Source of the DNA: Akkermansiaceae bacterium | GTDB lineage: Bacteria; Verrucomicrobiota; Verrucomicrobiia; Verrucomicrobiales; Akkermansiaceae | NCBI GenBank assembly: GCA_017798145.1 | Contig: CP059069.1 | Coordinates: 1,101,226 to 1,165,225 of the forward strand | DNA length: 64,000 nt | Direction of reading: 5' to 3' | In this document: in pieces, positions 41,486 through 44,400 of the stretch | Position numbering within the stretch: position 1 is the stretch's first letter | Layout: the number at the start of each line of letters is the position of its first letter | Made by a program: the position numbers and the translations under genes | The notes under the pieces: generated by a model | What the model saw: only the letters and a program-made list of their open reading frames with translations | What the model was told of the DNA's origin: nothing | The model's database searches: none

Positions 41486-44400
41486 TCACGCATACCCCAG
41501 CCAGGGGCCGAGCCATTTCTCGACCTCTTGGACAGACATTCCCTTGCGCTTCGCGTAGTCTTCCACCTGGTCTTTCTGCAGTTCCGAAAGCGCGAAATAA
41601 TGGCTCTCCGGATGGGAGAAATAAATGCCGCTGACCGCCGCGCCGGGATGCATCGCGCAGCTTTCCGTGAGGAAAACGCCGGTGGCCTCGGTGGCGCCCA
41701 ACAGATCGAAAAGGATCGGCTTCTCGGTATGATCCGGCTGCGCGGGATAGCCCGGCGCGGGGCGGATACCCTGGTAGTTTTCATGGATCAGCGCGTCCTT
41801 GGTCAACTCGCCTTCCGCCTCGTATCCCCACTCGATCCGCGCCTGGTGATGGAGCATTTCGGCAAAGGCCTCGGCGAGCCGGTCCGCGATCGCCTTCACC
41901 ATGATCGAGCCGTAAGGGTCGTTCGCCGCGTCCAGCTCCTTGGCATACTCGTCCGCGCCGTGGATGCCCACGACGAAACCTCCGATGTAGTCTGTGGCGA
42001 ACGTGGGGGCGATCTTCGGTCGCCCCCCGCCGCCGCCCTCACCCACAAACTCCCAACCCGCCAAACCAGCCATCTCGGGATTCCTCAAAACATACTCCTT
42101 CTGGTTCGCATAATCCTGCCCGTCCCGGATGATATGGTCATAAGATTCCTTCTGCCAAAACGCCCCCTCCCTACCGAGAAGCGCATTCGCCTCCTTCGCG
42201 GAAAACGACTTCATCCCTTGGAGGATTTCGGACAATGAATGGCTCCCCAACGGCTTGATCAAAAGATGCACATGGTTCGGCATCACGCACCACGCGCCGA
42301 GCTCGAACCTATCGCCTTCGAAGCGCAAAATGGCATCCCGCACGATCGCCGCGATCTCCGGCCTGCGCATGTGGCACTCGCCGTGTCCGGCTTCGAGAGC
42401 CGCCTCCATCCTCTCGGAATACAGCGCTTCGATTTTGGCGCGCGCATCCCTGACGGTGGTTTCCTCTCCCTCCTTCTCGGCTTTCTGTTCGATTTCCTCC
42501 AGCATCCGCTTTTCACTGCTGTATTCTTCCAATGCGGATTGCGGGATCGAATCGGCAAGCCGGAATGTAACCGCATAGGTGGCTCCCTCTTTGAACCAGT
42601 GGGGGAGGCTGCCGCTTGTGTTTCTTGTGATGCGGGGATCGGAGGGCGACCGAAGATCGCCCCCACGATCCCCTGCTCCCGGCTTCACCCAATCTGACAA
42701 CGCGACATTCGGTTTCCCTGAAGTCTTCTTCAACTGCTGGCGGAGCGTGTGGAACCTCGTCCGTTCGCTGCCGTCCTCGTTGAAAACGGCGATGTCGTCA
42801 CCCACCGAGTTCGCGGGGAAAAACCCGTAGATGCCGCGCGCCTGGAGACGATTTTCGGCGACCAGTTTTTCGAGATACTCACACGCCTCGCCATAAAGTT
42901 TTTTCGCCTCGGCGGCGCCGCCTTCGTTCTTGGTCTTGAGCTCCTTTTTCTCGCGATCCCACACGCCGCGCAGCTCCCACGCATGGAAAAACGGGGTCCA
43001 GTCGATGTATTCCACGAGTTCTCCGATCTCCGGCTCCACGGTTTTCGTCCCGGTGAAGGAGGGCACAGGCGGAGAATAGGAATCCCAATCATACTTCGAC
43101 CCGGAGGCGCGCGCCTCTTCGAGGGAAACCGTCTCCTTTTTCGGCCCGCCGAGGAAATTCTCGCGCGCCTTCCGCTGCTTCTCGCGCAGATCGGCGACAA
43201 AGGCGTCGCGCCCGTCCTTGGAAAGCAGCGAGGTCGTGACCGGCACCGAACGCGAGGCGTCGAGCACGTGGACGACGGGGCCGGAGTAATGCTCGGCGAT
43301 CTTGATGGCGGTGTGGGCGGCGGAGGTCGTCGCGCCGCCGATCAGCAGCGGAACCGTGAAACCCCGGCGTTCCATTTCCTTGGCGACATGCACCATTTCA
43401 TCGAGCGAGGGCGTGATGAGTCCGGACAGCCCGATCACATCCGCGCCGATCTCGATCGCCTTGTCCAGGATCTTGTCGCACGAGACCATCACGCCCATGT
43501 CGGTGACCTCGAAGCCGTTGCAGGATAGCACCACGCCGACGATGTTCTTGCCGATGTCGTGGACGTCGCCCTTCACCGTCGCGATGAGGAAACGACCGGC
43601 GGAGTTGCCGCGCTCGGCGACTTTCAGGGCGTCATCGAAGGACATGCCCGGGTTCTTCGCCTGGATCGCCTCGATGTCTCCGGCGAGGTTTTCCGCCTTC
43701 TCGGCTTCCATGTAGGGGAAAAGCCAGGCCACCGCTTTCTTCATCACGCGGGCGGATTTGACGACTTGCGGGAGGAACATTTTCCCCGCACCGAAAAGAT
43801 CGCCGACCACGCCCATGCCGTCCATCAACGGCCCTTCGATCACTTTCAGCGGCCTGCCATACTTCACGCGGGCCTCCTCGGTGTCCTCGTCGATGAAGCG
43901 GTCGATTCCTTTCAAAAGCGCGTGTTCGAGTCGCTTCTCCACCGGCTCCTCGCGCCATGAAAGATCCTCCTCCACCTTCTTCCCGCCAACGCCCTTGTAA
44001 CTCTCGGCGAGATCCAACAGCCGCTCGGTGGAGTCGTCGCGGCGGTTCAGCAGCACGTCCTCGACGCACTCTAACAGATCCTTCGGAATCTCGTCATACA
44101 CCTCCAGCATCCCGGCGTTGACGATGCCCATGTCCATCCCCGCCTGGGTCGCGTGGTAAAGGAACGCGGAATGCATCGCCTCGCGCACCTTGTTGTTGCC
44201 CCGGAACGAGAAGGAGATGTTGGAAACGCCGCCCGAGATCTTCGCGCCCGGCAGGTTCTCCTTGATCCAGCGGGTCGCGTTGATGAAATCGAGCGCGTAG
44301 TTGTTGTGCTCCTCGATGCCGGTCGCGACCGTCAGGATGTTGGGATCGAAAATGATGTCGTTGGGATTGAATCCGACCTCATCGACGAGGATGCGGTAAG

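Follow-up and report, generated by a model that had tools for sequence, protein, structure and literature searches.

A RAYT transposase with REP ends encoded in frame within methionine synthase, one of a class of such insertions in conserved bacterial proteins

Introduction

Can a core metabolic enzyme accommodate a complete transposase within its own polypeptide chain? The question is raised by a 64,000-nucleotide stretch of DNA from an Akkermansiaceae bacterium (positions 1,101,226 to 1,165,225 of contig CP059069.1; hereafter the window), in which the gene for methionine synthase (metH) stays open across a REP-associated transposase (RAYT) and its palindromic ends. In the excerpts of the sources cited here, RAYT genes are described as bounded by two inverted REPs with a GT(A/G)G head (PMC2817692), and as domesticated single-copy genes, inherited by vertical descent without copying themselves, whose function is unknown (PMC8049555). 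Palindromic repeats are reported in frame within protein-coding genes, including those of the verrucomicrobium Opitutus terrae (PMC3733652), and the WHO elements of yeast are presented as homing in an intein-like manner into a metabolic gene without protein splicing (PMC7282813). Among the titles and opening lines of abstracts listed for open-licence papers in PMC, no report of a RAYT embedded in a host protein was found, which does not prove its absence from print.

Results

A transposase lies in frame inside the MetH activation domain

The minus-strand frame that encodes most of MetH runs for 1149 codons without a stop, the insert included (41486-44935). The features of the locus are as follows.

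41486..44935, minus strand: open reading frame (ORF) of 1149 amino acids for the pterin, B12 and activation domains of MetH, the in-frame RAYT included
45429..46517, minus strand: homocysteine-binding domain of MetH, a separate ORF of 362 amino acids
42686..43057, minus strand: MetH activation domain, part 1, up to DWV; extent as modelled
41540..41998, minus strand: MetH activation domain, part 2, from DYIGG; Pfam stretch, residues 980-1132

A Pfam scan placed a Y1_Tnp match inside the activation domain, whose family (PF02965) was recovered as two stretches on either side of the RAYT. The insertion therefore lies within this domain, in a loop between DWV and DYIGG, and not between the B12-side linker and the activation domain, where a reading made from the sequence alone (the sequence-only reading) had put it. 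The extent of the element had been read correctly: it occupies 664 bp (42003-42666) of an open metH and ends exactly in perfect 22-base inverted REPs. Although 664 is not divisible by three, the full distance from DWV to DYIGG is 693 nt, which preserves the frame.

Against TIGR02082 the interrupted protein scored 1143.2 bits, exceeding the cut-off of 1010.85 despite the insert. The MetH motifs are intact, the domain set is complete when the neighbouring homocysteine-domain ORF is counted, and the MetH C-part is present as a single copy in the window genome, which is one contig of 4.39 Mb. The catalytic family of MetE (PF01717) had no match in this genome, the same search being positive in 10 of the 14 genomes used as controls.

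Between the homocysteine-domain ORF and the remainder of metH lies another ORF (44975-45382, minus strand), which we take to be of the GxxExxY type. Using a simple motif search, similar ORFs were seen between the two metH parts in L167, L168, L173, L234 and, in a short form, L225, and beside metH in L164; none was found in L163, L165, L166, L169 or L213. Because such an ORF is present there in some relatives and not in others, the junction between the two metH ORFs may be another recurrent insertion site.

The embedded domain retains the catalytic residues of a RAYT

The following positions define the transposase within the chimeric ORF.

42041..42607, minus strand: RAYT (HUH transposase) domain, LPHW to WEFVG
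42266..42274, minus strand: HVH metal-binding pair, residues 888-890 of the ORF
42092..42094, minus strand: catalytic tyrosine in YVLRNP (residue 948); its counterpart in 4er8 is the first tyrosine of YIYINP

The transposase had been described as in frame with its metal-binding pair and catalytic tyrosine intact, and residues 888-890 and 948 are indeed present. In the alignment with 4er8, residue 948 corresponds to Tyr115, the catalytic tyrosine of TnpA-REP. The two histidines and this tyrosine are kept in all 128 embedded rows (107 of them distinct) and in 62 of 64 other rows. The tyrosine of SYDH was rejected as the catalytic residue, since that position varies (Y in 51 of 85, F in 25, W in 8, H in 1), whereas the tyrosine of YVLRNP is conserved.

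The insert exceeded the cut-off of the Y1_Tnp model and matched the solved structure of TnpA-REP (4er8) at 1.9e-7. Its score against the REP_Tyr_transpos model (NF047646) was 74.1 bits, just under the curated cut-off of 80, which was passed by the embedded copies in IspG (L109, 81.4) and HsdR (L135, 84) and by no other scanned copy. Although the strict model score just fails, the insert belongs with the RAYTs because its motifs, fold and REPs agree. Its score against the IS200/IS605 model NF033573 was 23.1 bits, far under the curated cut-off of 55. An intein was likewise rejected, as no self-splicing family was among those reported for the window ORFs or for selected host ORFs; these scans covered the families among the matches listed, taken by E-value or as the best 25 rows.

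The element is bounded by REPs of a family dispersed in the genome

Three REP features accompany the RAYT.

42645..42666, minus strand: REP end on the MetH N-terminal side, a GTGG-headed palindrome of 22 bases
42003..42024, plus strand: REP end on the MetH C-terminal side, 22 bases, an exact inverted copy of the other end
41418..41485, unstranded: inverted pair of the same REP family, REPIN-like, immediately after the metH stop codon; one arm matches exactly and the other has 1 mismatch

The window element has the two inverted GT(A/G)G-headed end REPs of a RAYT, and its genome holds a dispersed cognate REP family. With up to 3 mismatches the 22-base REP was matched 4 times in the window against 0 expected, and its 18-base core was found genome-wide at 34 sites (15 exact and 19 near, with 1-2 mismatches), where the reversed-pattern control gave 0 sites.

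The 24 elements found at this site across the family, the window copy included, carry inverted REPs at both ends, mostly with a GTAG or GTGG head. The REP sequence differs from lineage to lineage, and the two ends of any one element remain matched: the pairing score averaged 24.0 for an element's own ends versus 10.8 between genomes, 0 of 10000 permutations reached as high, and the own end was the best partner in 17 of the 24. With stricter scoring, 13 of the 24 lay above the 99th percentile of random REP pairs; in three (G094, G130 and G043) the pair is weak or missing and the RAYT is intact. Among the 107 embedded copies in all hosts the own-end mean was 24.1 versus 9.3 for random pairs, and 58 lay above the 99th percentile of random pairs, a percentile that related REPs raise; GTAG or GTGG stands at the arm start in 32 of these 58, against a background of 0.11 per search window.

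The window genome encodes a second, standalone RAYT (L021, 1447-2232) that is 37% identical to the one in metH and has several copies of a different REP around it. Since a different REP surrounds this second RAYT, the metH RAYT is likely to be the transposase of the REPs that end it. To the right of the insert in L066 and L054, tandem REP-derived peptides continue in frame after the RAYT, for example as repeated DSQSLNP and DHDRDGHATS.

Filled and empty metH sites occur across the family

The MetH C-part was present in 134 of 145 family genomes. The metH site was read in 50 of these 134 and in G010, found by the RAYT profile search, giving 51 genomes with the window genome included. Of the loci, the first 30 were taken as the best matches and comprised 10 filled and 20 empty sites; the next 20 were picked mainly for long open frames. 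A RAYT occupied the site in 24 genomes (23 among loci L023-L072, and L090), lay elsewhere in metH in 1 and was absent from 26, proportions that do not give a frequency because long open frames guided the choice of 20 of the 51.

The empty sites, with which the sequence-only reading had proposed a comparison in close relatives, are therefore at hand: in 14 of the 15 printed, the stretch from DWV to DYIGG is 15-24 nt. The remaining one (G098, L034) has a 48-nt loop, which could be a remnant of an earlier insert. In all 24 filled sites this stretch is a multiple of three (675-924 nt) and the RAYT is in frame; its identity to the window copy spans 39-83% across 22 of the filled genomes. Among the matches listed, no stop-bearing RAYT match lay on the metH contig of its genome. 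A RAYT precedes FHTLRQQ in G087 (L058), where the main metH site is empty, and in L231 another lies just before the activation domain; with the main loop, RAYTs have entered metH at three places in all.

The suggestion that MetH tolerates the in-frame insert as a loop is supported. A structure model of the chimeric activation domain, built with 12 sequences, was of moderate quality (mean pLDDT 69.7, pTM 0.49). Confidence was low in the linkers around the RAYT (residues 105-155 and 343-354) and near the C-terminus (424-439, 481-494 and 515-523), and most of the rest lay at 70-92. In a Foldseek search one model chain matched both the MetH activation domain (6bm5, TMt 0.66, rmsd 10.9) and TnpA-REP (4er8, E 1.8e-5, TMt 0.61). 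The structure prediction that had been suggested for the chimera thus recovered both domains, and the placing of the MetH and RAYT domains relative to each other is unreliable.

The poorly modelled linkers would suit a situation in which the RAYT is made separately, through an internal translation start or proteolysis, and MetH works as associated pieces; MetH is, moreover, already split elsewhere, its homocysteine domain having an ORF of its own. Such an arrangement is compatible with a RAYT inserted and translated within MetH. However, separate initiation alone would not need the frame to be kept on both sides, as it is in 24 of 24 metH inserts, and we regard a separately made RAYT as unlikely, if worth bearing in mind.

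RAYTs are embedded in many conserved proteins

The metH insertion had been presented as a single unusual case, but it belongs to a wide class. A profile of metH-embedded RAYTs was used as the search query and found matches in many other long frames. When a copy was counted as embedded if at least 100 residues of the same ORF lay on each side of the RAYT, 107 distinct embedded RAYT sequences were obtained among the matches listed. Embedded copies were found at 48 of 80 named-collection loci (the best 80 of 494 relatives) and, among the matches listed, at 16 of 27 further phylum-search loci, proportions that are not a census because the query was built from metH-embedded RAYTs. The RAYT matches G131:C404, G020:C284, G093:C51 and L162 are outside this classification.

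The 64 embedded copies labelled in the family reside in MetH (25), IspG (15), LeuRS (14), a DUF5107-TPR protein (4), adenosine deaminase (3), CarB (2) and HsdR (1). Outside metH, 10 ORFs were scanned with Pfam or NCBIfam, the 14 LeuRS were also confirmed with their own model and the others were labelled from flanking sequence; L133, one of the 10 scanned ORFs, is a tail fusion and was not counted as embedded. Further hosts, identified in the subset scanned, are ValRS, AlaRS, a DinG/YoaA helicase, threonylcarbamoyladenylate synthase, HypF, PglX, Eco57I-type methylases and a B12-radical SAM protein, and no NCBIfam model matched L183, L243 or L251 at the limit used. Most of the named carriers belong to the Verrucomicrobiota or the Planctomycetota. 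In the tail fusions, as distinct from internal insertions, the RAYT forms the C-terminal end of a CinA-type protein (L133) or of another long ORF (L161).

The RAYT-interrupted LeuRS is the sole LeuRS above the model cut-off in 14 of 14 genomes, scoring 944-979 bits with its pieces combined; G088 also contains broken LeuRS fragments below the cut-off. The window genome's own LeuRS is uninterrupted. LeuRS is indispensable, so the chimera must either function itself or yield a functional product on processing.

A FastTree phylogeny of 85 RAYTs (midpoint root, supports not printed) groups the copies largely by host gene. Those from MetH form one part, with the TPR copies nested inside it and the IspG copies beside it; three MetH copies (G027, G020 and G126) branch outside this part, and the LeuRS-embedded copies are mixed with standalone RAYTs.

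RAYTs move horizontally into the same metH site

The MetH and RAYT trees disagree. Across the 24 filled genomes each alignment rejected the topology of the other: p-AU was 3.2e-49 for the RAYT topology on the MetH alignment and 1.5e-7 for the MetH topology on the RAYT alignment. G000 and G090 share 94% of the MetH C-part versus 59% of the RAYT, and G111 and G088, from different genera, are paired in the RAYT tree (bootstrap 81), whereas the MetH of G088 groups with its own genus. Filled and empty sites are interleaved on a 49-tip MetH tree (24 filled and 25 empty genomes, with the empty G039 and the second-site G087 left out), on which the presence of the RAYT takes a minimum of 10 changes to explain, or a single gain followed by 13 losses. 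Shuffling the presence labels 1000 times gave a mean of 16.7 changes and a minimum of 10, so RAYT presence is partly clustered on the MetH tree, the 10 changes equalling the smallest of the shuffles. The sequence-only reading had weighed whether relatives would carry the domain at this place as a fixed, diverged part of MetH: it is present and diverged, but the interleaved alleles and conflicting trees show that it is not fixed.

Two genomes of different isolate names and accession series, both metagenome-assembled (L168 and L169), share an exact 733-bp tract that covers the whole element with short flanks, starting 20 bases before the left REP and ending ∼42 bases past the right REP, within metH. 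On its two sides the metH sequence is 80.3% and 86.3% identical between the two genomes, and the other aligned surrounding DNA mostly 70-94%. Because the tract is exact and its flanks are diverged, the element is able to reach the same site horizontally; a tract of this kind is what would remain after recombination or gene conversion involving the element and short flanks, and cross-contamination is an unlikely source. IspG in L109 and L220 offers a milder case (RAYT 97.8% identical, flanks 92.8% and 88.9%). The remaining identical pairs in the flank comparison are mostly the same genome retrieved twice. Filled and empty alleles thus exist at one site, as for a homing element, with horizontal arrival there, and the tree tests together with the L168/L169 tract disfavour a single insertion followed by strictly vertical descent.

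The RAYT is under purifying selection: dN/dS was 0.06-0.14 in 5 of 10 pairs, dS being saturated in the other five, and four of the five values rest on dS of at least 2.6, so that only G000-G045 (dS 1.21, ratio 0.10) is firm. This selection would also be expected of an ancient domestication, in which a RAYT entered MetH once, gained a role and descended vertically with many losses. The clustering by host gene, the intact RAYTs whose REP pairs are weak (3 of 24) and a presence pattern that one gain and 13 losses could yield on the 49-tip tree speak for it as well. It does not account for the mutual rejection of the two topologies, the G000/G090 discrepancy, the pairing of G111 with G088 across genera, the exact tract in L168/L169 or the same design in unrelated proteins, and we consider it improbable. 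That metH is decaying after a random insertion, the loss of MetH entertained earlier, found no supporting point and can be dismissed (open frame, intact motifs, one MetH C-part, no match to the MetE family in the genome, many species alike, purifying selection), and an assembly artefact, to which the many metagenome-assembled comparison genomes might point, is just as remote, since the window genome is one 4.39-Mb contig, diverged copies occur in many records and the named strain Rubritalea marina DSM 17716 (L191), not marked as a metagenome assembly, has the arrangement.

Discussion

In summary, the copies reside in frame, retain their catalytic residues, have matching REP ends in most cases, are under purifying selection, exist as filled and empty alleles, and show horizontal arrival at the same site. 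We therefore think it probable that the metH insert is a translated, homing-like REP-RAYT-REP element that occupies a variable loop within the activation domain of MetH, and that it belongs to a class with recurrent sites in conserved proteins. The element would reside as an extra domain in the MetH loop, with MetH remaining functional and the RAYT expressed as part of its chain.

We infer that the chimeric MetH may well be an active enzyme, and that the embedded RAYT may still cut REP hairpins, which would make methionine synthase the transposase for the genome's REP family. Transfer into the same site could come about as metH alleles recombine or undergo gene conversion, whether or not the RAYT contributes nicking. 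A conserved gene would probably be an advantageous address: only clean loss would be tolerated, expression would be assured, and homologous flanks would await the element in every relative. A more general proposal, plausible if tentative, is that REP-RAYT units pass from one species to another by homing into fixed loops of essential enzymes, where they stay as translated, folded and catalytically competent domains, such that MetH or LeuRS would be the genome's REP transposase as well; unlike inteins, they would need no splicing.

Sideways movement at the same address inside essential enzymes offers a concrete, testable route by which a RAYT transposase could persist. Long members of the family are described in an excerpt of one survey as discarded because they were taken for fusions or annotation errors (PMC6006769); studies that discard overly long transposase matches would overlook embedded RAYTs. 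Core enzymes such as MetH, LeuRS and IspG can carry a whole transposase, and the collection of hosts is a natural library of permissive insertion sites.

Inteins are selfish elements in conserved, often essential proteins; they have filled as well as empty alleles and spread horizontally at a fixed site. The metH RAYT resembles them as a selfish-type insert in a conserved protein with filled and empty alleles and same-site spread, but its hosts had no splicing domain among the families reported, and the insert appears to stay in the protein. IS200/IS605 transposons encode transposases of the Y1 HUH superfamily, to which the metH insert also belongs; the insert, however, scores far below the cut-off of their model and sits inside a gene.

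Like the WHO elements, as excerpted, the metH RAYT appears to home without splicing into a metabolic gene, but each WHO integration replaces the 3' end of FBA1 (PMC7282813), whereas the RAYT forms an internal HUH transposase domain. Intragenic REPs and Rickettsia palindromic elements are likewise palindromic repeats translated in frame inside genes, but as described in the same kind of excerpt they span ∼20-82 residues and place no transposase inside the host protein (PMC3733652). The closest relatives are the RAYTs and REPtrons themselves, which share the HUH and tyrosine residues, the two inverted GT(A/G)G-headed REPs and a dispersed REP family (PMC2817692, PMC8049555). What is new here, relative to RAYTs as described in those excerpts (PMC8049555), is their residence in frame inside conserved proteins, at sites that recur and between species among which they move.
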